Origin: a virus
Length of the DNA stretch: 64,000 nucleotides
IMG/VR virus record: IMGVR_UViG_3300007539_004938
Location: 1-64,000 of that record
Reading direction: 5' to 3' (one strand)
Shown: piece after piece, positions 1-34,800 of the stretch
Position numbering within the stretch: the stretch's first letter is position 1
How the letters are laid out: every line of letters starts with the position of its first letter
The notes under the pieces: generated by a model
What the model was told of the DNA's origin: nothing
Database searches by the model: none
The model's input: only the letters and a program-made list of their open reading frames with translations
Program-made: the position numbers and the translations under genes

Positions 1-693
1 CTGTTACCATATTTCCGCAGAGTTGAGTTTGCTGGTGGTGAGCCACTGATGGATCCTAATCACTATCGCATTTTAGACTTGTTAGCACCATACGGCGAAA
101 ACATTGAAATAAAGTATGCTACAAACGGCACAGTGACGGGTATAAAGGGCGGAAGGACCATACACGACTATTGGCCTAAGTTTAAAAACGTGGTCGTAAA
201 TGTAAGCATAGACGGGCTACACGATGTTTATGAATACATTAGAGGCAATGGTAAGTTTGAAGAAATGGAAGAAAATGTCAAAATTTTTAAGAGCTTTCCC
301 AATGTTAAATATGTTGTAGGTGCTTGCACAGTGCAAGCAGGTAATGTTATGCAACTACCAGATATTATTGATTACTTTTTAAATACCATGGGCATTGTTT
401 TTTATTCACACAGAGTAAACTATCCAAATGTATTGAGTGCTCAGTGTTTGCCTCTAGAATACAAAGAAGTTGTAGTTGATCGATTGACCGCAATGAAAGA
501 GATAGTGCCAAAGTACCCTATTATGGCTGTGGATGATAGATTGTTGCCAATAACACTGCAACAAATACAGGATAATATCAACTTTTTAATGGCTAGAGAC
601 TTGAGCGACAAATGGCCGCAAACACTGGAGTTCAATCACAGACTAGATGCAAGCAGGAATCAAAGAAAGTTTGAGCAGGTATGTTTAGGGTAG
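1..693 (+). CDS. Radical SAM protein, twitch type (5' partial)
   Basis: The frame is open from base 1, so the N-terminus and the CX3CX2C iron-sulfur motif lie outside the window. What remains begins just before the G-G-E-P motif (bases 37-48), which contacts the SAM methionine in radical SAM enzymes. It continues through the second half of the barrel with a typical N-V-S-I-D-G strand. The C-terminal N-H-R-L-D motif matches that of the twitch-type gene at 19228-20511, so this is probably the C-terminal part of a twitch-domain enzyme. It overlaps the next radical SAM gene by 13 bases, implying translational coupling. The substrate is unknown. Confidence 0.85.
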   Translation: MLPYFRRVEFAGGEPLMDPNHYRILDLLAPYGENIEIKYATNGTVTGIKGGRTIHDYWPKFKNVVVNVSIDGLHDVYEYIRGNGKFEEMEENVKIFKSFPNVKYVVGACTVQAGNVMQLPDIIDYFLNTMGIVFYSHRVNYPNVLSAQCLPLEYKEVVVDRLTAMKEIVPKYPIMAVDDRLLPITLQQIQDNINFLMARDLSDKWPQTLEFNHRLDASRNQRKFEQVCLG

Positions 694-1577
694 AAAATCG
701 CTGGCCTCATTATGCAGACAGTGTGAAAATAGAATGGAACTTGGGCAAACGCTGCAATCTAGATTGCACATATTGTCCTCCTGAAATACACGACTTGATA
801 AGTCCACACACAAATGCAGGTACACTTTTCAATACTGTTGATGAGATAAGCAAAATACCAAATGCTAGAATCAGCTTCACCGGTGGAGAACCAACTGTGC
901 ATCCTGCTTTCGAAGATTTACTAGAGTATGCAAGACCCAAGATAAAGTGGTTAAGTGTTACAACCAACGGCACAAGGACCACAGAGTTTTATGAACGCAT
1001 ACCTGTAAACTATATTGTGTTCAGTTTACACTTTGAGGATACTCAATGGAGTAAAAGATTAAACAATATTATCAACTTTGCAACTGCAACAGAAAGTTTG
1101 AAGTTTCCAAAGGATTATCATATTGCACTAATGGCACATCAGGATCATATGAGTGATGTCAAAAAAGCAGCAGCATATCTCACTGGACACGAAATACCAT
1201 ACACAGTTAGAAGAATAAGATGGACAGAAAAGCACGATTGGTTTGACGATTTAAAATACAATCAAAATGACTTGGATTGGATAATGCGCAACACTGCAAC
1301 TGCTCAACCCAATACACTGATAGACGAACACGAACTAAAGCACGCCAACGATGTAATAAAAGAACATCTAAATCAGTTCGAAGGATGGAACTGTATGGCA
1401 GGTATAGAAAGCCTAATGATAAACTGGGACGGTGAAGTACACAGAGCCACTTGTAGAGTAGGTGGAAGTTTGGGAAATATATACAATAACACATTCAAAC
1501 TACCAGAGGAGCCTGTTGTTTGCACACGCAAGTGGTGTACTTGTGCCGCAGACATTAATATAACAAAATGGAAGTAG
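681..1577 (+). CDS. Radical SAM enzyme with C-terminal CX4CXC tail
   Basis: The cluster motif CNLDCTYC (C25, C29, C32) would bind the SAM-cleaving 4Fe-4S cluster, and G-G-E-P-T follows at residues 68-72. The 298-residue protein ends in a cysteine-rich tail (C281, C286, C288; pattern CX4CXC) after a W-x-C / R-A-T-C-R segment, resembling a shortened SPASM/twitch auxiliary-cluster domain. Its last codons (I-T-K-W-K) overlap the start of the next gene in the string AAATGGAAG. It is paralogous to the minus-strand gene 6389-7318, which holds the same place in a mirrored cassette. It most likely performs radical chemistry on a carbohydrate or peptide, but the substrate cannot be read from the sequence. 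Confidence 0.9.
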   Translation: MFRVENRWPHYADSVKIEWNLGKRCNLDCTYCPPEIHDLISPHTNAGTLFNTVDEISKIPNARISFTGGEPTVHPAFEDLLEYARPKIKWLSVTTNGTRTTEFYERIPVNYIVFSLHFEDTQWSKRLNNIINFATATESLKFPKDYHIALMAHQDHMSDVKKAAAYLTGHEIPYTVRRIRWTEKHDWFDDLKYNQNDLDWIMRNTATAQPNTLIDEHELKHANDVIKEHLNQFEGWNCMAGIESLMINWDGEVHRATCRVGGSLGNIYNNTFKLPEEPVVCTRKWCTCAADINITKWK

Positions 1578-2629
1578 AAGCAATAAAACTAGCCAAACCC
1601 GAACCCATGACAGTTACATGGGATATAGGGCGCCGCTGCAACTTTGACTGTACATATTGCGAAAGCGATAGGCACAATACCTACAGTCCGCCTACATTAT
1701 GGGAGGACCTGTTAGAAACATACAACTTTGTTAAAAACTACACAATGATGTATAACCAACCAAATGCAAACATCAACTTCACAGGGGGCGAACCAACTGT
1801 TAATCCCCGCTTTTGGGACTTTGTACAACATATCAAAGACACCAGTGACTTTACTGTTGGACTTACCAGCAATGGCACATGGCCAGAAAAATATATTGAT
1901 ATTATCAAACAAAACATTGTAGGAGTTACGTTAAGTTACCATACTGAAGCAAAACATTTTAGTAAACAACGAACTATAGACAATGCTAAACTACTGAAAG
2001 ACAACAATGTATGGCTAACAGTGAATGTAATGATGCACACCGATCATTGGGACGAGTGTATAGAAACAGTTGACATTTTACAAAAATATGGTATAATAGT
2101 ATTTCCTACTATAATTGGAGACGGTAACTTGGGAACAACAGAGTGGTTCAAAGACAGCGAAGGTGTATTGCGCAGAACAAGTCATCCTTACACGCAACAG
2201 CAACAAGCATGGTTCTTTGATTACCACGGTATAGATGCAAAAACACAAGAACAAATATTAAGTGGTAATCAAATGCCAAGAGGTTGCTGCGGAAATAGAG
2301 ATATATTGGGCAAGTGCAACAACTGTTGGAGTAAAATAAGTGCTGTAAACACAAACTTTGAAGGTTGGTATTGTAGTGTAAACAAACACTTTTTACACAT
2401 AGACCAACACACACAAAAAGTGTATCATCATCAGACTTGCAAAGCCAAGTTTGAAGGCAGAGGTGCAATAGGCAGTTTGCGGAACACAGATGGTATACTC
2501 AACTATGTGCTGGAAAACCAAGGCAGAACCATTGTGTGTCCAAACAGTAGGTGCGGATGTGGCATGTGTGTGCCTAAAGCAAGATCAAGGAGCGAGTATG
2601 AAAGCATTACCAGACCTACCACTGTATGA
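1568..2629 (+). CDS. Radical SAM enzyme with extra cysteine clusters
   Basis: The motif CNFDCTYC (C24, C28, C31) and a downstream G-G-E-P-T mark a radical SAM fold. After the barrel come a Cys-Cys pair and a CNNC group in the stretch R-G-C-C-G-N-R, a G-W-Y-C-S segment, and a C-terminal CX4CXCX2C (I-V-C-P-N-S-R-C-G-C-G-M-C). This suggests one or two auxiliary iron-sulfur clusters. Length is 353 residues. The start overlaps the end of the preceding radical SAM gene by 10 bases. The closest relative in the window is the minus-strand gene 5379-6401, with the same cysteine layout and a similar P-K-A-R tail. The substrate is unknown. Confidence 0.9.
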   Translation: MEVEAIKLAKPEPMTVTWDIGRRCNFDCTYCESDRHNTYSPPTLWEDLLETYNFVKNYTMMYNQPNANINFTGGEPTVNPRFWDFVQHIKDTSDFTVGLTSNGTWPEKYIDIIKQNIVGVTLSYHTEAKHFSKQRTIDNAKLLKDNNVWLTVNVMMHTDHWDECIETVDILQKYGIIVFPTIIGDGNLGTTEWFKDSEGVLRRTSHPYTQQQQAWFFDYHGIDAKTQEQILSGNQMPRGCCGNRDILGKCNNCWSKISAVNTNFEGWYCSVNKHFLHIDQHTQKVYHHQTCKAKFEGRGAIGSLRNTDGILNYVLENQGRTIVCPNSRCGCGMCVPKARSRSEYESITRPTTV

Positions 2630-3287
2630 TCAAGTGACTTGGATATTCCAAGAAAGCAACTTTGATTATATTGAACTGGATTATCCTATGCTTAATATCG
2701 ATCAGTACAAAGCAGAAGCAGAACTTGCTGAAGATTACTATGTGGATCACAGAGACGAAAGCACAGGCGAAGGTTCGCACCAAGGTTGGCAGGCTTGTAC
2801 ACTGTATGGCATAGACACAGACAAAACCAATCACTGGTGGGTTTATGATTATGAACTGCCACCTGCGCACGATTGGACAGAACTAGGAGACTTGTGTCAA
2901 TATATCAAAAACTTTTGGTTGCAGTTTCCTGCAGAGTTTGTTTATAGAAGTAGATTTATGCGACTTGGTGCAGGCGGTATGATAGACACACACAACGACA
3001 ATCCGGGTGACATAGATTTAAGTGCATGGCACACACTGCAAATACCAATCAACACTGCTATCAATCATCCAGCAGGATGTGAGATGCATGTTGAAAACAC
3101 TGTTGTTCCATTTGCCGATGGAAAACAGTTTTTGGTAAACATTTTCAAAGATCACAATGTGCATAATCCAACTGACACAGATAGAATACACAACATTACA
3201 CATGTTATTCCAGGCAGTATGCACACACTATTTGCAAATCTTGTTGTAAGGAGTTATAAGAAGCAATATGATAAAGTATCCGGGTAA
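2598..3287 (+). CDS. 2OG-Fe(II) oxygenase, aspartyl/asparaginyl hydroxylase-like
   Basis: This 229-residue protein carries the metal- and cosubstrate-binding pattern of the aspartyl/asparaginyl beta-hydroxylase family: H132-x-D134 in I-D-T-H-N-D, a distal H186 in K-D-H-N-V-H-N, and R196 placed to bind 2-oxoglutarate. I chose the ATG at 2598 because AAGGAG lies six bases upstream; a longer frame from 2490 would run through the preceding gene. It overlaps the end of that radical SAM gene by 32 bases and the next gene by 20 bases, so it belongs to the same plus-strand operon. It would hydroxylate a protein, peptide or small molecule. The assignment rests on motif pattern only. Confidence 0.7.
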   Translation: MKALPDLPLYDQVTWIFQESNFDYIELDYPMLNIDQYKAEAELAEDYYVDHRDESTGEGSHQGWQACTLYGIDTDKTNHWWVYDYELPPAHDWTELGDLCQYIKNFWLQFPAEFVYRSRFMRLGAGGMIDTHNDNPGDIDLSAWHTLQIPINTAINHPAGCEMHVENTVVPFADGKQFLVNIFKDHNVHNPTDTDRIHNITHVIPGSMHTLFANLVVRSYKKQYDKVSG

Positions 3288-4359
3288 GTTTCACAGCAGA
3301 GAAGACTTTTGTGTTGTTATTGTAGACGATACTCACAAGTACTCTGGCATTACAAAAGAATATGTAAAAAATCAGGCAGACTACACAATACAAAACTGTG
3401 TTGGTATGAACTTTGATGTGTATGTTACAAGAGACGAAGAACAAACATTAAAACAACTACAATATGAAAAAGCAGTTGTTATAAGCCCTGCTACTGAGTT
3501 TTTATACGGCGAGCAGTTTTTTGAAAGTATAAAAGGAGATTATTTCCTATTAGGACATTTATTGGATATGGGAGATGCATTTTATACTTTACATCCTCAA
3601 TGTTACGTAGTAAACTTAAAACTTTTAGAAGTAGAAATAGGACAGGAGCAACATTGCATTCAACACAGACAAGTTATACCAATTAGGACAGAACAAAATA
3701 TTCACGACTGGTATACTCCTTTAGAGATTGAAGCAAGTTGGAAAGTTGGAACTTATAATCATAAACTGCATGGATACAATGCTATCGGAGTTGGGTTACG
3801 ACAGGGATACAAAATTTTATCTTTTAACGAAAAGCAACGTTCTCTGAAAAACTATATATATCCTGATGGAACTGGAATAGATTTCATACACAAACGTCAT
3901 AGATTTGCGTTAACAGAACTAGTTTATAATGAAAACACAGGAAGTGATAATCTACCTATTCATGAACGCACTACTTTAGAAACTGTTGTTTTACCAGCAA
4001 GCGGTAATTTATATGAAAAACTTGGAGACGAAAACACCTTATTTATTTTTTATGATCATAGTCCTACAGCATTAGAAAATATTAAAAGTAAAACAAAGCA
4101 TATTAATGCAGAGTATCATCATATAGATGTTATCGCTGAAACTGATGATTTTATAAAAATAATAGAAAATAGACCTGGACGTTTATATATAGAAATGAGT
4201 AATGTTTTCTGTTTTGAATGCACTACTCCATTTTACAGTTTAGAATATAGAAAGAAAGCAGAAGAAAAACTAATAAGTTTTGCAGATCGATTTGATTATT
4301 GGATACATTTTGATCAACGAGCAGGTGATATTATTGATTTACCTTATTGGCATTACTAA
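3268..4359 (+). CDS. Hypothetical protein of the radical SAM operon
   Basis: I do not recognise this 363-residue protein. It has no signal peptide, no membrane segment and no cysteine cluster. The N-terminal half alternates short hydrophobic strands (C-V-V-I-V-D-D; K-A-V-V-I-S-P-A) with helices, as in a nucleotide-binding or glycosyltransferase-type alpha/beta fold. A central motif G-D-Y-F-L-L-G-H-L-L-D is followed by L-H-P-Q-C-Y-V-V-N. The second half is a separate alpha/beta segment (L-F-I-F-Y-D-H). It is the last plus-strand gene of the operon starting before base 1, and its stop overlaps the convergent radical SAM gene by 29 bases. A role with the radical SAM enzymes is inferred from position only. 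Confidence 0.75.
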   Translation: MIKYPGKFHSREDFCVVIVDDTHKYSGITKEYVKNQADYTIQNCVGMNFDVYVTRDEEQTLKQLQYEKAVVISPATEFLYGEQFFESIKGDYFLLGHLLDMGDAFYTLHPQCYVVNLKLLEVEIGQEQHCIQHRQVIPIRTEQNIHDWYTPLEIEASWKVGTYNHKLHGYNAIGVGLRQGYKILSFNEKQRSLKNYIYPDGTGIDFIHKRHRFALTELVYNENTGSDNLPIHERTTLETVVLPASGNLYEKLGDENTLFIFYDHSPTALENIKSKTKHINAEYHHIDVIAETDDFIKIIENRPGRLYIEMSNVFCFECTTPFYSLEYRKKAEEKLISFADRFDYWIHFDQRAGDIIDLPYWHY

Positions 4360-5392
4360 GTTGTTCACTAGGTGATATTAGTTTATTTCCGCATGTTCTA
4401 GCACAAGTGTATAGTTTGTTTATTGACCAGTATTTTTCCCAAACTGATTGATATTGATCGCTCTCTACTATGTCTATTATGCTAGATTTTAAAACATTTG
4501 TATCACCTAAATCTTTTATAAGCATTTCGTATTGGTTTTCTATGTGTAATCTAATATCATCAAGTTTAGGATTTTCATAAGGTTGGTATGGTATGCTTGC
4601 AAGAAAACAACACGGAAATAAGTTTTTGTGAGCATCAATATATATTTCTTTGCTATGTTTAGCATAACATGTTATAGTTGTGCTATCTACATACTCTTGT
4701 ATATTTTCTAAATCATTATCTGTAAGTTTAATATTAGAACTTAATGAACTAGGATATAAAAAATATTGAAATCGTATTTTTTTATCAAAAACTCCAAAGC
4801 TATCATCAAAAGCAAATCTGCTGCTGTGTTTAACATAAAAATCTTTAAATCCATAAGAACGACTTAAATCTCTTGCTGTTTCAATTTGATGTTCATTGTG
4901 TCTAAATACTAAAAAACTCCATACTGCATTTCCGCCATTTAATATAAAATGTTTTGCATTAGATAAAACTTTTTCATAAGAAGTTCCAATCCTATATATT
5001 GAATGTGTATCCTTTAAACCATCTAAAGAAAAAACTACTTTGTGATTTGTAGGTAAACAGCTAGGTAGACTAGTCCACCAGTCAGCATTATGCATTCCGC
5101 CATTTGTGTGTATTTCAATACTTTTTTGTTTTTGTTTTAGGTATTGTAATATTTTTAATATATCAGGACATATCATAGGATCTCCAAAGTTTCCGCAGAT
5201 ATAAAAGTGTTGAATAAACTTTAGGCTAACATCATCAAATACTTTAATAAAATCATCAATACTCCAGTCACAAATTTTGATTCTACTATTTTCTAATCCG
5301 CCATGCCAGTTACGATCGCACATAGGACAACTTGCTTGACATCTATTGGTAAGTTCTATATGTACAGTTTTGATGTCTTTATAACGAATCAT
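4331..5392 (-). CDS. Radical SAM/SPASM-type enzyme
   Basis: The N-terminal motif CQASCPMC (C18, C22, C25, numbered from the ATG at 5392) follows the typical strand H-I-E-L-T-N-R. The C-terminal half has a SPASM-like layout: C-Y-A-K-H, then I-Y-I-D-A-H-K-N-L-F-P-C-C-F, then a terminal C-A-R-T-C-G-N-K. This differs from the CX4CXC enzymes beside it and resembles ordinary SPASM proteins that mature peptides or modify sugars. The start at 5392 has AAGGA 12 bases upstream and overlaps the preceding gene by 14 bases; an in-frame ATG at 5422 would add ten unconserved residues. It is the last gene of the minus-strand run from 12373. The substrate is unknown. Confidence 0.88.
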   Translation of the reverse strand: MIRYKDIKTVHIELTNRCQASCPMCDRNWHGGLENSRIKICDWSIDDFIKVFDDVSLKFIQHFYICGNFGDPMICPDILKILQYLKQKQKSIEIHTNGGMHNADWWTSLPSCLPTNHKVVFSLDGLKDTHSIYRIGTSYEKVLSNAKHFILNGGNAVWSFLVFRHNEHQIETARDLSRSYGFKDFYVKHSSRFAFDDSFGVFDKKIRFQYFLYPSSLSSNIKLTDNDLENIQEYVDSTTITCYAKHSKEIYIDAHKNLFPCCFLASIPYQPYENPKLDDIRLHIENQYEMLIKDLGDTNVLKSSIIDIVESDQYQSVWEKYWSINKLYTCARTCGNKLISPSEQLSNANKVNQ

Positions 5393-6401
5393 ACAGTTGT
5401 TTTGTCCTTGCTTTAGGCGCACATATACCGCACCAACATGTTTTCTTTTTGCATATTATAGTGCCAGTGGTACCTAGTCTATCCAATATTTCTTTTGTAT
5501 TATTGAGTGTACCAATAGGTCCTATGCCGCCGTCCCAATTCATTTTACAATCCTTGTTTGTGTACACCATTTTGCTGTGTTGTTGCACATACAAAAAATG
5601 TTTGTCCACACTGCAATGCCAGCCAGCAAAACGATTTTCAACTTTGTCTACAGTGCATCCATCTGAACAAAGTTTTGCTCCACCGCAACAAGCTCTTTTG
5701 TCTCCTAGATCAAATCCCCTTGTTATTATAGACAGCAGTTTCTTGTTTAACTTTGTAGGAGATTCGCCACGCAAGTATTTTACTTGTTCAGCATTGTAGT
5801 TAAATCTAAAATCTAACCAGTGATGATCTATTTCTCGCAAGTGGTAAGGCACCTTTGATTTTTTACACCATTCAACCATTGCAACACACTTTTCCCAATA
5901 TTTTGGATGCATCATGATGTTGACTTGAAACTGTTTTTTATTGGCTTTTAAACCCATTACATTGTGTTTAAAAATTTTAACTTGCTTTGATTCTGTTTCA
6001 GCATGAAATGTTACAGTGTAATAATCTATATACTTCATCATTGTATTCCATAGATTGTTTCCTACAACACCGTTTGTAATAGTACTGACATTAATATTTT
6101 TACCAGAATCTTTTATCCTGTAATGCAAGTGCTGAAATACATTTAAAATGCCAGGTTGGAAGAAACTTTCTCCACCTTGTATGTTAATACCTGCATACTG
6201 TTGCTCTATAGGTTTTGTATCTAGTATTCTACTGGTGTATTCTATAATAAAATCAGCAGTAGTCAAACAATCTTGCCATTCAGGATGATTAGTTTTGTTA
6301 TTATGTCCATCACCGCAATATGAACAATCAAGATTGCATTTAAGAGTAGTTTCCCATTGTACATCAAACATTTTGGGACTAACAGGTTTTAAAATGTCCA
6401 T
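5379..6401 (-). CDS. Radical SAM enzyme with extra cysteine clusters (mirror paralog)
   Basis: The motif CNLDCSYC (C22, C26, C29) is followed by a G-G-E-S variant of the usual GGEP. After the barrel come the cysteine groups R-A-C-C-G-G-A-K-L-C, G-W-H-C-S-V-D-K-H, and a terminal CX4CXCX2C tail (I-I-C-K-K-K-T-C-W-C-G-I-C) ending in P-K-A-R. The same sequence of features occurs in the plus-strand gene 1568-2629, and the two are clear paralogs. I chose the ATG at 6401, giving 340 residues, because it sits in the string AAATGGACA at the end of the upstream gene, exactly as in the plus-strand pair; an ATG at 6434 is less likely. Confidence 0.88.
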   Translation of the reverse strand: MDILKPVSPKMFDVQWETTLKCNLDCSYCGDGHNNKTNHPEWQDCLTTADFIIEYTSRILDTKPIEQQYAGINIQGGESFFQPGILNVFQHLHYRIKDSGKNINVSTITNGVVGNNLWNTMMKYIDYYTVTFHAETESKQVKIFKHNVMGLKANKKQFQVNIMMHPKYWEKCVAMVEWCKKSKVPYHLREIDHHWLDFRFNYNAEQVKYLRGESPTKLNKKLLSIITRGFDLGDKRACCGGAKLCSDGCTVDKVENRFAGWHCSVDKHFLYVQQHSKMVYTNKDCKMNWDGGIGPIGTLNNTKEILDRLGTTGTIICKKKTCWCGICAPKARTKQLYDSL

Positions 6402-7318
6402 TTGCTTATTCCCATTTCTCCACTGCAAGTGCATTGTGTTTGTTCACATATCACAGGCTCTGTCCTTGCTGTAAACTTATTTACAAAATCGTCGTCATAA
6501 AAGTTGCAATCATACAAATGCTGTGTGCAGTTGCCGCTGATTACACCTGTTCTAAATATAGTAAAAATATCCAAACCAAGATTGCATTTGAATCCAAAAA
6601 AGTTGTTGTATCCGTTTATGTGAAACCAGTTATCATTGTCTATCTTAACAGTGCTTGAATCGGTTTCTACAAATATTTCAGTGCGCTTTACCCTTGCAGC
6701 ATTAATATACCAATCAATCTCTGGATACCTTTTCACACTTTTACTCAAATATTCTTTCTGTGTATCTGTGTATTCAGCAGAACCTATTACAGGCTTTGCA
6801 ATAACCGTAAACGGATATTTGCTGTTTGTCAACTGTTCAACTATGTGTATACATTTATCAAAGCACAGTGGATTCATCAACACATCTGCATTGCATTCTA
6901 TATTATGTTCGTAAAGCAAATCCAGCAGAGCAATACTGTGTTTGATATTTGTGTATTCGTGATGTATGCTGACATTGACTATGTCAAATATATCTATGTG
7001 CCGTTTCCACCAACCGATACTTTTGCTGCCATTGGTACTGATTTTAAACACTACATCAAACTCTGTTTTTAGCTTATTCATAACAGACGGTAAGTCTTTC
7101 CATATTGTAGGCTCTCCACCAATCAAGTATATCAGCACAGGTTTATTGTAACTGTGCAGCAAATGCCTCAAGTTTTTGTAAAACAGTTGTTCATCAGGCC
7201 AAGGCATAGTGCCGCTGTTACTGTCAGGAAAACAATAACTGCATTTGAAGTTGCAGAGATTGCCCAGCATTATCTCTATCTGAAGTCTGTTTTTAAGATT
7301 GGTTATACGTTTGATCAT
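6389..7318 (-). CDS. Radical SAM enzyme with C-terminal CX4CXC tail (mirror paralog)
   Basis: The motif CNFKCSYC (C22, C26, C29) and a following I-G-G-E-P-T identify the radical SAM core. The 309-residue protein ends in V-I-C-E-Q-T-Q-C-T-C, a CX4CXC tail, followed by G-I-S-K-W-T-F. The tail and the terminal K-W match the plus-strand gene 681-1577. The start ATG overlaps the stop of the upstream twitch-type gene by four bases (ATGA). It lies second in the minus-strand cassette twitch / CX4CXC / CX4CXCX2C. The cysteine tail probably holds an auxiliary cluster or metal site, which is inference. Confidence 0.9.
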   Translation of the reverse strand: MIKRITNLKNRLQIEIMLGNLCNFKCSYCFPDSNSGTMPWPDEQLFYKNLRHLLHSYNKPVLIYLIGGEPTIWKDLPSVMNKLKTEFDVVFKISTNGSKSIGWWKRHIDIFDIVNVSIHHEYTNIKHSIALLDLLYEHNIECNADVLMNPLCFDKCIHIVEQLTNSKYPFTVIAKPVIGSAEYTDTQKEYLSKSVKRYPEIDWYINAARVKRTEIFVETDSSTVKIDNDNWFHINGYNNFFGFKCNLGLDIFTIFRTGVISGNCTQHLYDCNFYDDDFVNKFTARTEPVICEQTQCTCSGEMGISKWTF

Positions 7319-8697
7319 AACAAATGTGCAAGTTCAGGAAATACATCCTTAGCATTTACTCCTCTTATTGCATCCAGTTTGTTTACATATTCTTTGAAGC
7401 CTGGCAACAAATGACTGTTGTCCTGTGCATCCATGTGATTTAGTATTGCTTCCCAACGGCGCCAACCATAAGGATTCTGTTCCCAAAACACAGGATCTTT
7501 TGTGTAAAAGTCGTACAAGTAACTTTTGAACTTGGCAAACAAATCTCTTATTTCTGCTTTGTCCTCTTTGGGCAGTATTTGTATACTCATAAATGTTGGA
7601 ATATACAGCAAGTGCATGTTTATCAGTCCACCGCCTGCTCTTACACCTCTGATCATTTCAGTGTTTACTTTGCTGAAGTTTTGTGTGTTTTTCCAATGTA
7701 TAAAATCAGGTAAGTGTTTGATATTAAATATTTGTATAGCAGTGGCAATGCTTGGACGAATGTTGTCAGGTGTGCGATCCAGCATGTGCAAGTTGCGTTC
7801 TACAGTTGCCCAATCAGTTGGATATCTAATGTAGTTGTTTCTTGGTCCAGCAGCATCAATACTTACACCTACTTTTACTAGATCAAAGTGTTTCCAAAGT
7901 TCGATAAGATCCTCGTCTACCAGAATACCGTTGGTGTTGTATCGCAATCTAATGTGCGTATTATGCCCACTGCGTACTATTTCTTCAATAAACTTTTTGT
8001 GCTCTGCAATCATTAATGGTTCGCCACCTGCAAAGTACACTTCCTTCAAGTTGGGTATTTGCTTGTACAACTGTTCCCAGAATATTTCATTTTCATGCCA
8101 CTTGTTGTTGAAAGCAGCTTTGTCCCATTGCATTTGTCGCTTTACTTCAGGATCTTCCAGTTGTGGCTCTAGCACTTTCCAGTCTTTTACCCACTTGCTG
8201 CTGTCATGCGGTGAACACATTACACACTTGATGTTGCAAGTATGCCCTAATCTCAAATCTAGGTATTGCAGTTCGTTTTTGTATGTGCCATCTTGATGTG
8301 TGTTGTTCAACAGTTCTTCTACATCAAGTCCACGCTCCATCCATGTGCCTGTTTCCCACAAGCGTTTGCTAACAACACCTTGTGACTCTTCTGCAAAGCA
8401 CTTGGTACAACTTGCAGGTATAGAACCTTCCATCATGGTTGTGCGTACACTTTTCATATAATCGCTGTTCCACGCTTGCATAGGAGTAACAGTATTGAAG
8501 TTGATAGGATCACCGTTTTGCTGTTTGACTAATCCTACCGTGTGATCTGAACCTGCACCACTAGCATTAGCACTGCAACACAATCGCATGTCTCCGTTGG
8601 GTCTTGTTGCCATGTGTATCCACGGCAATGCACAAAATGTTGGAGTGGTTTTTTCAGCAATAGTGTTTTGCACCATTGCAATCAAGTCTTTGTTCAT
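7315..8697 (-). CDS. Twitch-domain radical SAM protein
   Basis: This 460-residue protein has an N-terminal cysteine module (F-C22-A-L-P-W-I-H-M, C40-C41, and C97-x-x-C100 in C-T-K-C-F) placed before the barrel, then the core motif CNIKCVMC (C154, C158, C161) and F-A-G-G-E-P-L. This circular order, with the auxiliary-cluster domain ahead of the radical SAM domain, is the arrangement annotated as 'twitch domain-containing radical SAM protein'. Strands R-Y-N-T-N-G and V-S-I-D-A-A-G support a complete barrel. The start overlaps the methyltransferase gene by four bases. It is the first radical SAM gene of the minus-strand cassette and is paralogous to the twitch genes at 19-23 kb. Confidence 0.92.
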   Translation of the reverse strand: MNKDLIAMVQNTIAEKTTPTFCALPWIHMATRPNGDMRLCCSANASGAGSDHTVGLVKQQNGDPINFNTVTPMQAWNSDYMKSVRTTMMEGSIPASCTKCFAEESQGVVSKRLWETGTWMERGLDVEELLNNTHQDGTYKNELQYLDLRLGHTCNIKCVMCSPHDSSKWVKDWKVLEPQLEDPEVKRQMQWDKAAFNNKWHENEIFWEQLYKQIPNLKEVYFAGGEPLMIAEHKKFIEEIVRSGHNTHIRLRYNTNGILVDEDLIELWKHFDLVKVGVSIDAAGPRNNYIRYPTDWATVERNLHMLDRTPDNIRPSIATAIQIFNIKHLPDFIHWKNTQNFSKVNTEMIRGVRAGGGLINMHLLYIPTFMSIQILPKEDKAEIRDLFAKFKSYLYDFYTKDPVFWEQNPYGWRRWEAILNHMDAQDNSHLLPGFKEYVNKLDAIRGVNAKDVFPELAHLL

Positions 8698-9299
8698 TTT
8701 TCTCCAATCAAAAGGAATCGATTGTATAAAGGCAGTTCTAAAGTGTCATGCTGTTTTATATATCTAAGTTTACTATGTTCATAAAAATCTACTACATTGG
8801 CAAAGCATCTAATGTGTTCAGGCAAGTCATAATAGTTATTGCTTTGTAGAACTATTAAACTAGTCGAAGGCACTTTAGATAACCATTTATCATACTGTTC
8901 TTGACTAATATGTTCTGTGCTTGTATTGATAACAACATCAGGATCAAACTCATATTCATATTCACACATATCAGCAGTAATAGCATTAAACTTGCCTAAC
9001 ATTTCTTGTCTTTTACAAATCATATTTGCAGTTTCTACGCAACTTGAATCAATGTCTACACTGCGAATGTCATTTATTTTCATATTGCTGTTAAATAACA
9101 AACTTGCAAGCACGCCATTCCAGCCGCCATGTATTACTATATTGAGAGGTTTGTCGGGTACATGTTTAGATAACTGGTTTACAAGCCATACTTTGCTTTT
9201 GAGTTGTCCTTTCCAAAAACTTTCAAGTACACCAAAGTGATTTTCACTGTTGCGTATTGCATCCATCCAAAATGCTACATCATCTAAATCTACCAGCAT
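8694..9299 (-). CDS. Class I SAM-dependent methyltransferase-like protein
   Basis: The 201-residue sequence has a Rossmann-like pattern. A first strand and glycine loop (L-N-I-V-I-H-G-G-W-N-G, about residues 52-62) is followed by an acidic second strand (S-V-D-I-D-S), then a motif with I-T-A-D-M, and a fourth strand D-V-V-I-N-T-S-T-E-H. That is the order of SAM-binding motifs I-IV. It is short and carries no recognisable substrate-binding domain. It overlaps the gene before it by 10 bases and the twitch radical SAM gene after it by 4. It could methylate a sugar or small molecule in the same pathway; the substrate is inference. Confidence 0.65.
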   Translation of the reverse strand: MLVDLDDVAFWMDAIRNSENHFGVLESFWKGQLKSKVWLVNQLSKHVPDKPLNIVIHGGWNGVLASLLFNSNMKINDIRSVDIDSSCVETANMICKRQEMLGKFNAITADMCEYEYEFDPDVVINTSTEHISQEQYDKWLSKVPSTSLIVLQSNNYYDLPEHIRCFANVVDFYEHSKLRYIKQHDTLELPLYNRFLLIGEK

Positions 9300-10420
9300 G
9301 TTTTAACCATACTTTTTTGTATCTTGATAAAGTGTTTTAGATTGTGTTTTCTTATTTGTTTAGTCATACTATTCATTTCTGCAACACTATATTTTTGTTG
9401 TGCTTCATTTAATGCATCGATTGCACTAAACAATCGAGTGCTTTCATCTTCTGAATCATAGCTTTCGTTTATTATACACGAAAATGTTTTAAAGCCAAGT
9501 TTTTTTAGGTATTGAAGTGTATTTTTTGGACCTATTACTATAAATGCTTGTTTGCATACTATAGGTTTCCACATTTTTTCACTAAGGAATATATGATAAT
9601 GTTTTTGATGTACAGTATGATAATGAGTTTCAGTAACTATATTAAAAAAACAATCGTTATATATTCCTGGATTATAATCATGAGGTCTACAACCTGCTGA
9701 AAAATCCTCTGTATCGATATTTAAAGGTAGTTTTTTCCATAACTCTGTTTGTTGTGTTTTTAAAATCTGTTTATGTTTGTCTGAATAGTTATGACTATAA
9801 GGAAACAATAGTTGTTCAGGTGTAAGTTTGTTTGTATCTTTTTCATAATGATTATCTAAACAGCTTACCTTACCTATGTTAGGTCGTAACAAGTTTAAGT
9901 GATTTAGATAAGCAACAGTTTGCATACGATGCGCTCGAGGACGATTGTTTAAACAACAATATACATAGTCTTTTGTATAAGGTATATTATCTAATGGCTG
10001 ATCATAATAGTTGTCGTATACTCTATGATACCATTCGGGATAATAAAATACTTGAAATGTTTTTTTAAGTTTTTTTTCACGTAACCAACGATTATATTCA
10101 GCTTCTGCTTGATATAATCCTGTAGCAAAATATATTTTGTTTATACAATCGTATTTTTGTGTGCATTCATAAAGATCTGGAAAATATCTTAGTGCATATC
10201 CTTCTAAAACATCAGAAAACAATACATAAACATCTTTATTGTTTTTTGCTTCTTGTATTTTATCTTCACAGTTGAATATATTTGCAATAGGAACTATAAA
10301 AAAATATTTGCCACTAGGATTAGCTAACCACTCACTATATTTTTTGGTGTGTAAGTTAAACGGTTCAATGTATCTTGTGTGTTTTACATCGCAATAGTTT
10401 ATTTTATTATTTGTTTCCAA
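9290..10420 (-). CDS. Glycosyltransferase-like protein with S-E-K motif
   Basis: The C-terminal half contains N-I-V-T-E-T, then L-S-E-K-M-W-K-P-I, A-F-I-V-I-G-P and L-G-F-K-T-F. The same motif series occurs in the genes at 11312 and 15599. It resembles the nucleotide-sugar-binding half of fucosyltransferase-like GT-B enzymes, in which an S/T-E-K segment precedes a G-A-P loop. The family link is by motif resemblance only. The start is a TTG at 10420; no ATG lies near the N-terminus, and AGGA is 11 bases upstream. It overlaps the epimerase gene by 22 bases. The 376-residue protein has no signal peptide and would act in the cytoplasm. Confidence 0.55.
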   Translation of the reverse strand: METNNKINYCDVKHTRYIEPFNLHTKKYSEWLANPSGKYFFIVPIANIFNCEDKIQEAKNNKDVYVLFSDVLEGYALRYFPDLYECTQKYDCINKIYFATGLYQAEAEYNRWLREKKLKKTFQVFYYPEWYHRVYDNYYDQPLDNIPYTKDYVYCCLNNRPRAHRMQTVAYLNHLNLLRPNIGKVSCLDNHYEKDTNKLTPEQLLFPYSHNYSDKHKQILKTQQTELWKKLPLNIDTEDFSAGCRPHDYNPGIYNDCFFNIVTETHYHTVHQKHYHIFLSEKMWKPIVCKQAFIVIGPKNTLQYLKKLGFKTFSCIINESYDSEDESTRLFSAIDALNEAQQKYSVAEMNSMTKQIRKHNLKHFIKIQKSMVKTCW

Positions 10421-11310
10421 TGGTGAATGGTCCTATCTATTCCTTCTTCATAGGTAATTTTAGGTGCCCATCCTGTAACTTCGGTGATTTTATTGTGGTT
10501 ACTGTTTAGCCACCAAATCTCTCCATGTCGTGGATCTTTTGTATCCCAGTTGATTTGTCCATTCCAATCAAGTTTTTCAGCAATATATTCTGCACAATGT
10601 CTAATTTTGCGGGGATCGTCTGGCCCAATAGTAAATATATTTCCTTTAACTTTATCGCCATTAGTAATAACTGCCATCCATGCATCAAGCAAATCTTCAA
10701 TATAGATAAAGTTTCTATAAGGTTCACTATAACCTAGGTTGCAAGTATCACCTTTAAGCATTTGACTAATAATCTGTTCAGTTACAAAAAAGTCGTTATC
10801 TTTACGACCATACGCATTTGTTTGTCTAAAACTTGCCCAGTTCAACCCGTATGCTCGTTCTGCATACTCTAAGTATTTTTCACAACCATATTTTGCAACT
10901 GCATATGGAGCATTAGGATGAGGAATAGTATTCTCATCAAATGCTACACTATTTACATATGTACCTGTTACTTCTACTTCGTCACTAATAGGTTGCCAAC
11001 CATAGACTTCCATTGTGCTTGCAAACACAAAGTACGGCATAGGATCAACTGCTCTACAGGCTTCAATAAGATTTACTGTTCCTACATAGTTTACTTCGCT
11101 GAAACTTACCTGTTCATAAAAACTTTTTTGCACTTCGGTTCTTGCAGCCAAGTGAACAACAATATCAGGTTTGATTTCTTTAACTTCTTGTTGTACACCT
11201 GTGTGATGTGTTAAATCACTTTTCAGTTCAAATACTTCACCTATTGTTTTAAGTCTTGGTAGTAAATGTTGTCCGATAAATCCGCTCGATCCTGTCAATA
11301 ATATTCTCAT
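10399..11310 (-). CDS. NAD(P)-dependent nucleotide-sugar epimerase/dehydratase
   Basis: This is an extended short-chain dehydrogenase/reductase. The N-terminal dinucleotide motif is L-L-T-G-S-S-G-F-I-G, followed by H-L-A-A-R-T and the catalytic Y-x-x-x-K in Y-A-V-A-K-Y. An S-T-M-E-V-Y-G strand supplies the usual Ser/Thr. The N-A-Y-G-R and G-D-P-R-type segments downstream are typical of GDP-mannose 4,6-dehydratase and UDP-glucose epimerase relatives. Its 303 residues match the family. One base separates it from the upstream gene. It would produce an activated sugar for the glycosyltransferases around it. The precise reaction cannot be assigned. Confidence 0.85.
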   Translation of the reverse strand: MRILLTGSSGFIGQHLLPRLKTIGEVFELKSDLTHHTGVQQEVKEIKPDIVVHLAARTEVQKSFYEQVSFSEVNYVGTVNLIEACRAVDPMPYFVFASTMEVYGWQPISDEVEVTGTYVNSVAFDENTIPHPNAPYAVAKYGCEKYLEYAERAYGLNWASFRQTNAYGRKDNDFFVTEQIISQMLKGDTCNLGYSEPYRNFIYIEDLLDAWMAVITNGDKVKGNIFTIGPDDPRKIRHCAEYIAEKLDWNGQINWDTKDPRHGEIWWLNSNHNKITEVTGWAPKITYEEGIDRTIHHWKQIIK

Positions 11311-11311
11311 G

Positions 11312-12373
11312 TTAACTTTTTAAAAACTCCATTAGTGGTTCATAACTATTTACACATTCCAAATAAGTTTGCAACTGTTTGTGAACATCTGTATTATTTT
11401 TACAAAAACTTTCAAAGCCTTCTGGAACAAACCGTTTAGTTTTTAAATGGTCTAAATAAACTTCAAAGTTATACTCAGCAATATCTTTAGTAACATTATA
11501 TAATTCGTGTTTATCTATCAAACAAAGATCACGTACTTGTTTTATAAACATATCACATCTTTTTTCATCGTGTATTTCTTTATCAAACTTATAATCAATA
11601 ATATTATCAAAAAGTTTAAATCCTATATTGTTTAAATACATATTAGAATATGGTGCTCCCCATATTAAAAAAGGCCGTTGATGGTATATTGCTTTATAAG
11701 TTTTTTCAGTTATAAACAAACAGTCTAAATTGCTTTCACTGATAACACTGAAAACACTATTAGCAAACTCATTAGGCGGTACAAATATATCACACATTCC
11801 GTTACTTTGATGAAACTTTTTGTCAAAATTAAGATTTTTTGGCTCCCAATATTTAAAATCCCATAAAGATTGGTAATCTTCATAATCAAACTCATGCCAA
11901 CTTATATAACCATAGTCAAATAAACCTTCACCATACAACTTGTCTATAAACATACTCCTCCACCAATGAGGTCTGCCGTTTAGGCTTACAAAATGTTTAT
12001 CAAGTTTTGTTGGATCAGGTTTGATAGGATATACACCATGCTTGTTTCTAAATGCAAGTCTATGTGCAAAATAATTCTCCCAATGTTTTATATCAAAATC
12101 AATGTGTTTATATCTAAAGTTTAAACGTTTATCAGTACATGCTCCATAGTAAGATGTAACTTTTATATTTTTTAGTTTTGCATACTCTAATGTTTTGTAA
12201 ACTGCCGACGAAGAGCCTCCTAAAAGAACAGGTTCCCATTCTTCAGGAGCAATAATAATAATTTCTTTTGTTTGTGGATTATCAATACATTTCATTACTT
12301 GTTCAGGTGTATTAGGTCCCCAAGCATAAAAAACATGTGTTCCATTATTTTGATGGTATTTTAACTCATACAT
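11312..12373 (-). CDS. Glycosyltransferase-like protein with S-E-K motif
   Basis: The C-terminal half has V-I-S-E-S-N-L, I-T-E-K-T-Y-K-A-I, R-P-F-L-I-W-G-A-P and I-G-F-K-L-F, the series shared with the genes at 9290 and 15599. A central L-N-G-R-P-H-W-W-R also matches N-N-R-P-R-A-H-R in the first of these. I chose the ATG at 12373 (353 residues). A longer frame to 12454 would add residues lying wholly antisense to the diverging aminotransferase gene, so it is unlikely. The start has no clear Shine-Dalgarno sequence and lies only 10 bases from the divergent start at 12384. The function as a glycosyltransferase is inferred from motif and context. Confidence 0.55.
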   Translation of the reverse strand: MYELKYHQNNGTHVFYAWGPNTPEQVMKCIDNPQTKEIIIIAPEEWEPVLLGGSSSAVYKTLEYAKLKNIKVTSYYGACTDKRLNFRYKHIDFDIKHWENYFAHRLAFRNKHGVYPIKPDPTKLDKHFVSLNGRPHWWRSMFIDKLYGEGLFDYGYISWHEFDYEDYQSLWDFKYWEPKNLNFDKKFHQSNGMCDIFVPPNEFANSVFSVISESNLDCLFITEKTYKAIYHQRPFLIWGAPYSNMYLNNIGFKLFDNIIDYKFDKEIHDEKRCDMFIKQVRDLCLIDKHELYNVTKDIAEYNFEVYLDHLKTKRFVPEGFESFCKNNTDVHKQLQTYLECVNSYEPLMEFLKS

Positions 12374-12383
12374 AAATATACTT

Positions 12384-12986
12384 ATGTTTGAAATAGTTAA
12401 TGAGTTTGAAAATGCGATTGCAGACTTTTTTGGAGCGCCGTGTGCAGTAAGCACAGACTGTTGTACTCATGCTATAGAGTTATGTTTACGGTATAAAAAA
12501 ATCAAAAAAACCACTGTTCCAAACCATACATACCTAAGTATTCCTTTAACTCTTAAAAAACTAGATATAAGTTTTAGTTTTAACAGAGAGCAATGGACTG
12601 AGTATTATAAACTATCAAACACTAATATTATTGATGCTGCTACACTTTGGAGGCAAAATAGTTATATTCCTGGCACACTTATGTGTATAAGTTTTCAATA
12701 CAAAAAACATTTAAGTTTAGGTAGAGCAGGCATGATATTATGCGATAATGTAGTAGATTGTGCGAACTTATTAAAAATGGGATATGACGGTAGACACAGA
12801 AATGCTCCTTGGCCTGAACAAAAAATAACTAGTATGGGATACCATTACTACTTAACTCCAGAAACTGCACAACTTGGGTTAGACAAACTGCCAGATGCTA
12901 TACAACGTACTCCAAAAATTTGGTCTTGGAAAGATTATCCTGATATATCAAATAACTATATCTTCAAGGATATACCTGTTTCTTGA
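12384..12986 (+). CDS. Short DegT/DnrJ/EryC1-type aminotransferase
   Basis: The start F-E-N-A-I-A-D-F-F-G-A, with V-S-T-D-C-C-T-H-A-I-E, is the classic N-terminal pattern of sugar aminotransferases of the DegT family. D84 (I-I-D-A-A) matches the Asp that pairs with the pyridine nitrogen of PLP. S-F-Q-Y-K107-K108-H with G-R-A-G-M-I matches the Schiff-base lysine region. The protein has only 200 residues against about 370-400 usually, and lacks most of the C-terminal domain. The frame is clean and the stop overlaps the convergent SGNH gene by 39 bases, so it may be a minimal enzyme, not a broken one. It would aminate a keto sugar or cyclitol. Confidence 0.72.
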   Translation: MFEIVNEFENAIADFFGAPCAVSTDCCTHAIELCLRYKKIKKTTVPNHTYLSIPLTLKKLDISFSFNREQWTEYYKLSNTNIIDAATLWRQNSYIPGTLMCISFQYKKHLSLGRAGMILCDNVVDCANLLKMGYDGRHRNAPWPEQKITSMGYHYYLTPETAQLGLDKLPDAIQRTPKIWSWKDYPDISNNYIFKDIPVS

Positions 12987-13757
12987 ATATTTTTTTAAAT
13001 CTTTGAAGTCAGATCTCAAATACAAGTTGTTATGTATATAATTATAAACTGGGTCAAGATTTGTTACTATATCATTTTCTATAACAAAATCTTCAATCAT
13101 GTTTGAAAATAAAGTAAATCTGTCAAGTGTTTTTTCTCTTATTTTCCATCCCAGTGACGGATAAATCCAATCTTTGACTTTTTGCATATGGCCTTTTATA
13201 TCAGGATGACTATCTTGTAATTTTCCAAACGGTAAGTTAGTTTCAAACATATGCCAACTGATTTCTGGAAGTTCTTTTTCATAAAAATGCTTTAACATGT
13301 CCCATTGTTCAGAATGATCAAAAAATATAGCTGCCTCATTTGTATAAGGTGTAAAGCTGTGTCCTTGCCATATAATATTATCTTTATACAGTTTATTTAC
13401 ATATATAATTGACGTCATATTTTTAACTAAATCGTTTTGCATACTCCAATGATTTGTTAGCCATGTTCTATTATTGTAAGGACTACCTGTGTTAAAAACA
13501 CTTCCATGAGCTTTCCACATTCCATTGTCAAATCTATCCTCACGACTAAAACTACTCCACAATATCATTATTTTATCGTCTGGTGTAAACTTGTGTTTTA
13601 TATCAGCTTCGAGTATTCTGTGTTGTATTCCTACATTACCTAAGCCTGCTAAACCAAAATTGTAAAGTTCTAACTCTTTATCATATGCAATAATGTTTGC
13701 CCATGTTGGCCACATGTAACTTGTAAAACTACAACCAAAAGTGAATAATCTACTCAT
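12948..13757 (-). CDS. SGNH/GDSL-like hydrolase
   Basis: The N-terminal F-T-F-G-C-S10-F-T is the block I motif of SGNH hydrolases in a form common in phages. A downstream D-S-H-P-D-I-K-G-H segment supplies the D-x-x-H of block V. Its 269 residues fit. Such enzymes add or remove acyl groups on sugars. A perfect TATAAATA late promoter lies 25 bases upstream of the ATG, inside the diverging amidinotransferase gene, with AAGGA six bases before the start, so expression is probably late. It converges on the aminotransferase gene. It is one of three SGNH genes here, all on minus and alternating with plus-strand genes. Confidence 0.7.
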   Translation of the reverse strand: MSRLFTFGCSFTSYMWPTWANIIAYDKELELYNFGLAGLGNVGIQHRILEADIKHKFTPDDKIMILWSSFSREDRFDNGMWKAHGSVFNTGSPYNNRTWLTNHWSMQNDLVKNMTSIIYVNKLYKDNIIWQGHSFTPYTNEAAIFFDHSEQWDMLKHFYEKELPEISWHMFETNLPFGKLQDSHPDIKGHMQKVKDWIYPSLGWKIREKTLDRFTLFSNMIEDFVIENDIVTNLDPVYNYIHNNLYLRSDFKDLKKYSRNRYILEDIVI

Positions 13758-13777: not shown

Positions 13778-14785
13778 ATGAATATTTATAGCTCAAATGA
13801 ATGGGATCCATTAAAGAAGGTTTTAGTTGGCGTTGCAGACTACTGCCGTATTCCTGAAATGGACAAAAGTCTACGTTGTATAAACTATGCAGATAGACAG
13901 GATGTAAGTGATGTAAAGGCTGGTCTATATCCTGATCAAGTTGTTGAAGAAAGCAACGAAGATTTAGATAAGTTTGTTGCTTTTCTCGAAGGCGAAGGCG
14001 TTGAAGTTGTTAGACCTAAACGTACACCTGATGTTGAATACTACAACTATTGTCCTCGTGATACTGTATTTGTTCATAAAAAAGGATTTCTTGCAACGCC
14101 GATGAGTTTGCGAGCAAGAAGGAGAGAGTTTCATCATATGCTACCCCACATTGGAGGCGTAGAACTAAGCCCTCAATATAATAATGACGACCTCTACGAT
14201 GAAACTTGTGTTGGCGATCCTGATCGACTAGCACTTACTGAAGTAGCGCCTTGCTTTGATGCTGCTAATGCTATTCGTGCAAATGATGACATTTTGTATC
14301 TAGTAAGTAATAGCGGAAACAAAGCAGGTGCTGCCTATTTAGATCAATGGCTCAATAAGCCTAGATATGATTTTCAAGAATGGGGTGATAAAAAAGTACA
14401 TACACTTGAAAATGTTTACAGTTATATGCACATTGATAGCACTATTGCATTTTTACGTGAAGGACTATTACTAGCTAATCCAAGTAGAATTAAAAGTAAA
14501 GATGTTTTGCCTGGTCCGTTCAAGGATTGGGATATTATTTGGGCGCCGGATCCTGTTGATGCAGGACATTATCCAGGGCTATGCAACAGTAGTATTTGGA
14601 CTTGGAATGTAAACTTGTTTAGTGTTAATCCTAATCTAGTTGTATTAGAAGAACATCAAGATCCTACACGTAAAGCACTAGAAGCACACGGTATTGAGTG
14701 TGCTATGTTGCCATTGCGTCACGCACGTACATTAGGCGGTTGTTTCCATTGCTGCACACTAGATCTTATGCGTGAAATCGGGTAA
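13778..14785 (+). CDS. Glycine-amidinotransferase-like enzyme
   Basis: The protein matches the arginine:glycine / inosamine-phosphate amidinotransferase branch of the guanidino-group-modifying superfamily along its length. It opens with S-N-E-W-D-P-L-K-K-V-L-V-G. The catalytic triad is visible: D161 in P-C-F-D-A-A-N-A-I-R, H218 in M-H-I-D-S-T, and C325 in G-G-C-F-H-C-C-T-L-D. Length is 335 residues, close to StrB1 of streptomycin synthesis (about 350). The family moves an amidino group from arginine to an amine through a Cys-amidino intermediate. It lies near a DegT aminotransferase and sugar enzymes, so an aminated sugar or cyclitol is a plausible acceptor; that is inference. No clear Shine-Dalgarno precedes the ATG. 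Confidence 0.85.
   Translation: MNIYSSNEWDPLKKVLVGVADYCRIPEMDKSLRCINYADRQDVSDVKAGLYPDQVVEESNEDLDKFVAFLEGEGVEVVRPKRTPDVEYYNYCPRDTVFVHKKGFLATPMSLRARRREFHHMLPHIGGVELSPQYNNDDLYDETCVGDPDRLALTEVAPCFDAANAIRANDDILYLVSNSGNKAGAAYLDQWLNKPRYDFQEWGDKKVHTLENVYSYMHIDSTIAFLREGLLLANPSRIKSKDVLPGPFKDWDIIWAPDPVDAGHYPGLCNSSIWTWNVNLFSVNPNLVVLEEHQDPTRKALEAHGIECAMLPLRHARTLGGCFHCCTLDLMREIG
13783..13790 (-). promoter_or_regulatory. T4-type late promoter TATAAATA
   Basis: A perfect TATAAATA on minus, 25 bases upstream of the SGNH gene ATG at 13757, with AAGGA six bases before that ATG. It lies inside the first codons of the diverging amidinotransferase gene. It places an accessory enzyme under late control. Confidence 0.75.
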
Positions 14786-15547
14786 CGAAAGCAAGCCTTT
14801 TAACTTTTCTACAGTTTCTTGATGCCATTCTTTTCCGTCATGCATCATGTCTCTTGCTTTCATAGATCCATTTTTACATCTAATAACCCATAATCTATAT
14901 GGACTATTTAATATACGTTCATGATCCATTTCCCATGAAAAATTTAAAACAGGAACATTCATGCTTTTCCACAATAAGTTAAAATGATCAAACCATAATC
15001 TATTAGCAAAATGTAGCTCACCGTAGTCCATGATATATCTTTTTCTATACCAAGTTCCGTCTATATCTCTCGATTCTGCACGATCAGTGAACCGATAATC
15101 ATTGTTATTGTGATAGATAAAACTTTTGCGTGTATGTGCTGGCCATTGTACTATAACAATTTTAGGAATAGGAAAGTTATTTTTAATCCATTGTGATGCT
15201 TGATAGCACTGAATATCACAACCGGTACCTTGATTTGCTGCATTATACACATCGGTTTCTAAATATTTTGATATTTTCCAAGACCAAGTTTGATCGTGGT
15301 GTAATCCTACACCTTCGGTATAACTACATCCAAATGTTAAAACAAAATCATGAGACAAATCGGCAACCGATTTTGTTCTGTGTCCATATTCGTTAAATTT
15401 ATATTCAATATTTACACCAGCCCATTCCCAACTAGGATTTCGTTTACATTCTCTGTAATAATCGTCTTGTTCTCGTTGAGACATAAACTTCATAGTTTTG
15501 TTTATTCTTTCTGGATTAATAAGTAAACCGTTATCGTGTAACTCCAT
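14759..15547 (-). CDS. SGNH/GDSL-like hydrolase
   Basis: The block I motif T-F-G-C-S75-Y-T-E-G comes after an N-terminal segment of about 65 residues. The C-terminal D-M-M-H-D-G-K-E-W-H carries the D-x-x-H pair of block V. The strand V-I-V-Q-W-P before the middle fits the fold. The ATG at 15547 has AGGAAC six bases upstream. It is convergent with the amidinotransferase gene (27-base overlap) and divergent from the TTG-started gene at 15599. It is related to the SGNH genes at 12948 and 16907 in motif but differs in its N-terminal extension, so it may have a different acyl substrate. Confidence 0.7.
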   Translation of the reverse strand: MELHDNGLLINPERINKTMKFMSQREQDDYYRECKRNPSWEWAGVNIEYKFNEYGHRTKSVADLSHDFVLTFGCSYTEGVGLHHDQTWSWKISKYLETDVYNAANQGTGCDIQCYQASQWIKNNFPIPKIVIVQWPAHTRKSFIYHNNNDYRFTDRAESRDIDGTWYRKRYIMDYGELHFANRLWFDHFNLLWKSMNVPVLNFSWEMDHERILNSPYRLWVIRCKNGSMKARDMMHDGKEWHQETVEKLKGLLSLPDFTHKI

Positions 15548-15557
15548 TTGATGTTCC

Positions 15558-15565
15558 TATAAATA
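15558..15565 (+). promoter_or_regulatory. T4-type late promoter TATAAATA
   Basis: A perfect TATAAATA on plus, 33 bases upstream of the TTG start at 15599, in the gap between two divergent genes. AAAGGA follows ten bases before the start. It would drive the S-E-K glycosyltransferase-like gene late in infection. Confidence 0.75.
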
Positions 15566-15598
15566 TCTAATATATTTAATGTTAAAGGACTTTATATT

Positions 15599-27677: not shown

Positions 27678-27721
27678 AACTATTCTCCTTTATATATACC
27701 TAACATAAAAAAACAGTTTTG

Positions 27722-28609: not shown

Positions 28610-28627
28610 ATCTTTCCTTTACTCGGG

Positions 28628-28635
28628 TATTTATA
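28628..28635 (-). promoter_or_regulatory. T4-type late promoter TATAAATA
   Basis: A perfect TATAAATA on minus lies 18 bases upstream of the ATG at 28609, partly inside the end of the upstream fibre gene. This is the sequence recognised by gp55-bearing RNA polymerase, and a gp55-like gene is present at 60545. It would drive the two fibre-associated genes below it. Confidence 0.8.
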
Positions 28636-30199: not shown

Positions 30200-30235
30200 A
30201 GTTATCTAACCTTGTTATGTTAATGTATTTACCAG

Positions 30236-32080: not shown

Positions 32081-32092
32081 ATTTACTCCTGC

Positions 32093-34792: not shown

Positions 34793-34800
34793 TATTTATT
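34793..34800 (-). promoter_or_regulatory. Late-promoter-like AATAAATA
   Basis: AATAAATA on minus, one base from the late consensus, lies 19 bases upstream of the ATG at 34773, inside the last codons of the giant gene. It could drive the small structural gene and the fibres independently of the long upstream gene. Confidence 0.4.

Follow-up and report, generated by a model that had tools for sequence, protein, structure and literature searches.

The viral record IMGVR_UViG_3300007539_004938 is a 76-kb fragment in IMG/VR, of which we analyzed the 64,000 nt from its start (hereafter, the window). The window opens with an island rich in genes for radical S-adenosylmethionine (rSAM) proteins, six of which lie in two convergently transcribed sets of three. 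The plus-strand set consists of T1, a twitch-type rSAM of the N_Twi_rSAM family (1-693), B1, with a C-terminal CX4CXC motif (681-1577; PF04055, 4e-12), and C1, with an RxCCG motif and a C-terminal CX4CXCX2C (1568-2629; PF04055, 2.6e-15). On the minus strand the same types follow in the same order: T2, a twitch-type rSAM orthologous to genes of Bdellovibrionota (7315-8697), B2, again with a C-terminal CX4CXC (6389-7318), and C2, a paralogue of C1 (5379-6401). An earlier note on this DNA had described these six frames, their arrangement and their C-terminal cysteine motifs, and all of this was confirmed, with rSAM matches in every frame. Its count of rSAM genes was too low: the window holds 11 of them within 23 kb, not 8. 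X, which had been overlooked, lies directly after C2 on the minus strand (4331-5392, with a likely start at 5392 in a frame open to 5422; PF04055, 1e-9). The note had also seen two of the three types recur further on, and B3 (18273-19235, assigned from the B/C tree and a conserved block) and T3 (19228-20511) are indeed there, but within a minus-strand block of four rSAM genes, T5-T4-T3-B3, completed by T4 (20504-21763) and T5 (21723-23105, with a likely start at 23105 in a frame open to 23210). T2, T3, T4 and T5 belong to the N_Twi_rSAM family, passing the NF033640 cut-off of 170 with 398, 380, 364 and 306 bits respectively, while B, C and X score below it and represent families without a name in any library searched.

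T1 calls for a qualification. It is assigned to this family, yet positions 1-693 hold only the 3' part of the gene, since the end of the contig cuts it, and both the CX3CX2C motif and the twitch parts fall outside the window. The fragment scores 164 bits with NF033640 (curated cut-off 170) from profile positions 170-391 only, and in its nearest relatives (loci L001 and L018, 93-94% identity) the gene is whole. The CX3CX2C motif was present in all 32 full-length T1 proteins inspected and in every complete orthologue of T1, B1, C1, T2, B2, C2, X and of a further family, D. With regard to PF04055 membership, it is found in 10 of the 11 rSAM proteins of the window, the exception being the cut T1.

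To compare related islands we used a scan of viral contigs (of up to 282 kb) with C1, which gave 80 loci, 38 of them non-redundant by C1 identity. Gene content was counted in the 29 non-redundant phage loci with full flanks, all found through C1, so that its own presence in 29 of 29 reflects ascertainment; nine non-redundant loci found through T2 served as a second sample. Each rSAM gene of the window fell into its own orthologous family among the viral loci. A search of the GenBank phage collection matched C1 once and T2 three times, always weakly, and found nothing for B1, B2 or C2.

The earlier note had read the two sets as a mirror-image duplication of one cassette, in which case the three families should pair with the same topology. 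They do not. Pairwise identities were low (T1/T2 27%, B1/B2 23%, C1/C2 31%), and only C1 and C2 are mutual best matches within the window: B3 and C1 both outscore B2 as matches of B1, and T3 and T4 likewise outscore T1 as matches of T2. In the T tree, the T1 clade (support 100) grouped with locus L086 (99) and T2 with chromosomal proteins of Bdellovibrionota (99), so the split between T1 and T2 predates that between phage and bacterial T2. In the B/C tree, B1, C1 and C2 each formed one clade (99-100, with 99 for B1), as did B2 with its extra copies (100); B1 grouped with L086 and a Bdellovibrionales protein (92), B2 with others (90), and bacterial C proteins joined C1 and C2 in one clade (95) whose inner order the tree left open. 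Approximately unbiased (AU) tests rejected a T1+T2 clade (p-AU: 0.000225) and, weakly, a B1+B2 clade (p-AU: 0.037), and did not reject a C1+C2 clade (p-AU: 0.69), so that C1 and C2 may be an old duplicate pair. These were quick trees with several long branches, in which the T result is strong and the B result modest.

The smaller similarities on which the duplication had been built proved not to be specific to the pairs. The K-W tail shared by B1 and B2 is missing in other B2 proteins and occurs in B1 of the L086 lineage, and the P-K-A of the P-K-A-R tail of the C pair is also found in bacterial C proteins. The overlap junctions, said to be the same, differ (13 nt for T1/B1 and 10 nt for B1/C1 versus 4 nt for T2/B2 and 13 nt for B2/C2), and short overlaps occur at nearly all junctions of these operons. 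T1, B1, C1, T2 and X, together with B2 and C2 where present, are distinct families that separated before the phage lineage diversified.

The two sets are also not kept alike among relatives. T1, B1 and C1 were found in all 29 loci, T2 and X in 28, B2 in 20, D in 17 and C2 in 15. On the minus side the order is T2-B2-C2 in 12 loci, T2-C2-B2 in three and T2-B2 in five; eight have T2 without B2 and C2, one lacks T2, and in some loci an extra B2 is inserted in the plus set. The idea that both sets are maintained in the same order is therefore not borne out: families come, go and change places individually. For its part, the T5-T4-T3-B3 block is independently conserved within the clade of related contigs to which the window belongs, with G, a glycosyltransferase-like gene described below, preceding T5 in many of them.

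The related claim that the enzymes are retained as a unit stood in part. T1-B1-C1 was constant in the C1-found loci, T2 nearly so, and dN/dS against relatives was 0.01-0.19 wherever dS was finite, a mark of purifying selection on all of them; this supports the view that the whole set is retained and that each enzyme works. The unit, though, is not the trio, as C1 was missing from three of the nine T2-found loci. Co-inheritance points the same way: the correlation of protein distances between loci is strongest for T1-T2 (rho: 0.89), across the two sets, followed by T1-C1 and T2-D (both 0.71), and most links inside either set are weaker (T1-B1 0.50, T2-B2 0.34, B2-C2 0.31). Moreover, dS from L001 spans 0.05 to 1.6 between neighboring genes, which points to recombination of individual genes. 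As to the note's suggestion that each copy is tuned to its own substrate, paralogues that parted long ago and were both kept resemble enzymes for different steps more than variants for different substrates.

Part of this gene set has a counterpart on bacterial chromosomes. Among the matches listed in a genome scan, strong full-length C1 homologues came only from two Bdellovibrionota metagenome-assembled genomes (L081 and L082), which have 10 and 22 N_Twi_rSAM family matches; T2 is 43-44% identical to its relatives there. We surveyed T2 orthologues (>560 bits) in Bdellovibrionota, Alpha- and Gammaproteobacteria, Myxococcota and Bacteroidota. Of 369 Bdellovibrionota genomes, 19 have one; the 240 Alphaproteobacteria, 237 Myxococcota and 247 Bacteroidota gave no hit. 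The only hit in 369 Gammaproteobacteria was MED685, which was discarded as a carrier: the contig with its rSAM genes also carries baseplate genes of a jumbo phage, and L086, L165 and L166 were consequently treated as phage. Indeed, the GTDB representative 'Gammaproteobacteria bacterium MED685' has jumbo-phage contigs binned into it, recognizable by baseplate wedge genes (phrog_10646; contig C3 of G003 and contig C12). In all 12 bacterial loci checked, T2 stands beside X, D, M (a methyltransferase-like gene) and/or G, in chromosomal surroundings that differ from one to the next; for instance, the neighbors at L161 are, by eye, murA and serS, and no phage baseplate gene was found in G001, G002 and G105. 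Several Bdellovibrionota genomes also encode proteins with N-termini that look prepilin-like by eye close to the T2-X-D core (L262 11907, L263 12186 and L268 8611). The window has T2, X, M and G of this core, and D was not found among its open frames. The bacterial T2 have nearly all of the phage T2 as their sister group, so that the transfer between phages and bacteria must be old; one divergent phage copy (L073) was not placed, and with a p of 0.34 for phage T2 as one clade the direction of transfer is left open. The island is built of two layers: a core, T2-X-M-G (plus D in other phages), also found on Bdellovibrionota chromosomes, and a phage layer made of T1-B1-C1 with optional B2 and C2.

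Around these families lies a varied set of other genes. Between the two sets, on the plus strand, are a 2-oxoglutarate-dependent oxygenase similar to aspartyl/asparaginyl beta-hydroxylases (2598-3287, with a likely start at 2598 in a frame open from 2490; PF05118, 5.5e-9) and a protein of no matched family that has relatives in 53 viral loci (3268-4359). M (8694-9299, minus), whose class was assigned by eye, recurs in 117 viral and several bacterial loci and had neither a Pfam match nor a significant match in the PDB; likewise, M, G, X and 3268-4359 could not be assigned a specific function by sequence searches of Pfam, NCBIfam, PHROGs and the PDB. Next to M lies an exostosin-like protein (9290-10420, minus; named by eye, with no Pfam match), one of three island copies grouped by iterated HMM search (the others at 11312-12454 and 15599-16930). 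Interspersed with them are three proteins that by eye resemble SGNH hydrolases (12948-13757, 14759-15547 and 16907-17665), one of which matches DUF6071. The island further contains an NAD-dependent sugar epimerase/dehydratase (10399-11310, minus; PF01370, 1.6e-38), a short DegT/DnrJ/EryC1/StrS aminotransferase (12384-12986, plus; PF01041, 8.7e-11) and an amidinotransferase of the inosamine-phosphate type (13778-14785, plus) that matches StrB1-type 1bwd, its best PDB hit, over the full length (E: 2.3e-55) and that recurs as relatives in 54 viral loci akin to this one; here the enzyme is phage-encoded and its link to the rSAM genes putative. G (23107-24030, minus), identified through AlphaFold and Foldseek, is a GT-A-fold glycosyltransferase-like protein shared by phages and Bdellovibrionota. 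A related phage island (L063) carries a tryptophan-halogenase-like gene (15263-16732; PF04820, 1.6e-96), a class-III aminotransferase and a PP-loop-like protein. The island is flanked by tail-fiber and tail-collar genes on the minus strand (26661-34159; phrog tail fiber, PF07484 Collar), and between these and the baseplate genes a single open frame of 4593 aa (34796-48577) encodes a giant, structural-looking protein. The baseplate wedge protein is closest (~35%) to those of the jumbo phages Atu_ph07, SCTP-2, Paride and Rak2, which identifies the window as a piece of an aquatic Rak2/Atu_ph07-like jumbo myovirus.

What these genes do can be approached from folds and neighbors. The AlphaFold model of C1 (pLDDT 91) has BlsE as its best PDB match (5e-10; TMq 0.58) and also resembles SpeY, BtrN, EpeE, anSME, SkfB, SuiB, MoaA and other SPASM/twitch-type enzymes. 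Like BlsE, a cytosylglucuronate decarboxylase, and the aminocyclitol dehydrogenases SpeY and BtrN, C1 combines an rSAM core with a C-terminal auxiliary-cluster domain, but identities are only 14-21% and C1 has the additional RxCCG and CX4CXCX2C motifs. The top Foldseek matches of G (pLDDT 87) are GT-A glycosyltransferases, with SunS first (1.7e-5) and polypeptide GalNAc-transferases among them. Our reading, to which we give about an even chance, is that this is a mosaic biosynthetic island serving one sugar or aminocyclitol pathway and not a duplicated cassette. Each enzyme would most likely catalyze a different radical step of the pathway, which would make or decorate a sugar or aminocyclitol-type compound; G and the other glycosyltransferases could then attach it to a glycan on the surface of the infected cell or of the virion, so that superinfection might be blocked or receptor recognition altered. 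The proposed chemistry is suggested by the amidinotransferase, the DegT aminotransferase, the epimerase, the fold of G and the likeness of C1 to BlsE, SpeY and BtrN. The use on a surface glycan would fit the tail-fiber genes that adjoin the island and what has been argued for glycosyltransferases in the host-recognition clusters of pelagimyophages (PMC7029224). Several points weigh against this reading. The match of C1 to BlsE is moderate and the peptide-modifying EpeE, anSME and SkfB come next; SunS, at the head of the list for G, glycosylates a peptide, and the TM-scores of G are low (0.3); and the sugar genes lie outside the minimal core of Bdellovibrionota, which can consist of T2-X-D-G/M in their absence. 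To these must be added the weakness of the B1+B2 rejection, the quality of the trees and the chance that C1 and C2 are true duplicates.

The same structural matches feed an alternative in which a peptide or protein (such as a tail fiber or a pilin-like protein) is modified by the rSAMs and glycosylated by G, in a system resembling those of ribosomally synthesized and post-translationally modified peptides (RiPPs) or of protein maturation. SPASM/twitch rSAMs are often peptide maturases, and the likeness of C1 to EpeE, anSME, SkfB and SuiB, that of G to SunS and GalNAc-transferases and the adjoining tail-fiber genes are what one would expect here. Yet no conserved small open reading frame that could be a RiPP precursor was found near the cassette, the largest family of short frames reaching three of the 38 loci (a precursor elsewhere is possible), and the genes for sugar and aminocyclitol-type compounds speak against it; we consider this alternative rather unlikely. 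A similarly doubtful proposal, which we put forward tentatively, is that T2-X-D-M-G is an undescribed multi-rSAM pathway of Bdellovibrionota, captured by jumbo phages infecting them and expanded with T1, B1, C1, B2 and C2.

The genes could also be unrelated accessories that serve separate ends in a hypervariable region and belong to no shared pathway. The variable order and content and the scatter of dS, indicative of single-gene recombination, are in line with this, but T1, B1, T2 and X are nearly always together with operon-like overlaps, T2 recurs with X, D, M and G in different surroundings on Bdellovibrionota chromosomes and the T1-T2 distances go together, all of which makes this explanation distinctly improbable. 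Least credible is the inverted duplication of a whole cassette followed by divergence. It would account for the shared gene order and cysteine motifs and for the affinity of C1 and C2; against it stand the rejected T and B pairings, the minus sides that often lack B2 and/or C2 or have them swapped, and tails and junctions that are not pair-specific. It keeps a slight probability only in the form of an ancient duplication that preceded the split of the bacterial T2 and was followed by repeated partial losses.

Abundant rSAM genes in marine T4-like phages and rSAM cassettes in host-recognition islands are already on record (PMC5332604, PMC7029224). The uncultured marine T4-like phage TARA_ERS488813_N000010 has 12 rSAM genes in 183 kb (PMC5332604, 2017); it resembles this island by description, and the passage on them treats the genes as Fe-S-related, without families, order or a bacterial counterpart. 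The pelagimyophage cluster is a hypervariable island with tail fibers, glycosyltransferases and added rSAM cassettes (PMC7029224); at the level of gene content it is alike in having rSAM genes in a variable region beside tail-fiber genes. Pelagimyophages infect SAR11, whereas here a Rak2/Atu_ph07-like jumbo phage carries 11 rSAM genes with a core also present in Bdellovibrionota. A title and abstract search of the open-access literature for radical SAM with jumbo phages or Bdellovibrio found neither the families nor their modular rules nor the Bdellovibrionota core.

The wealth of rSAM genes in marine T4-like phages had been noticed before but left unsorted. Here they divide into stable families, and a rule emerges: there is a core that Bdellovibrionota also have, a phage trio that stays constant, and further parts that are optional. 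Similar gene order in such islands is no proof of cassette duplication. In place of a blur of 'radical SAM proteins' stands a defined set of five genes (T2, X, D, M and G) that can be tested. If capture from Bdellovibrionota is true, it would name the hosts of this aquatic phage group and place new chemistry at the cell surface of a predator. The set may help to trace which hosts these jumbo phages infect, and unusual chemistry on sugars or peptides is likely to come from it.

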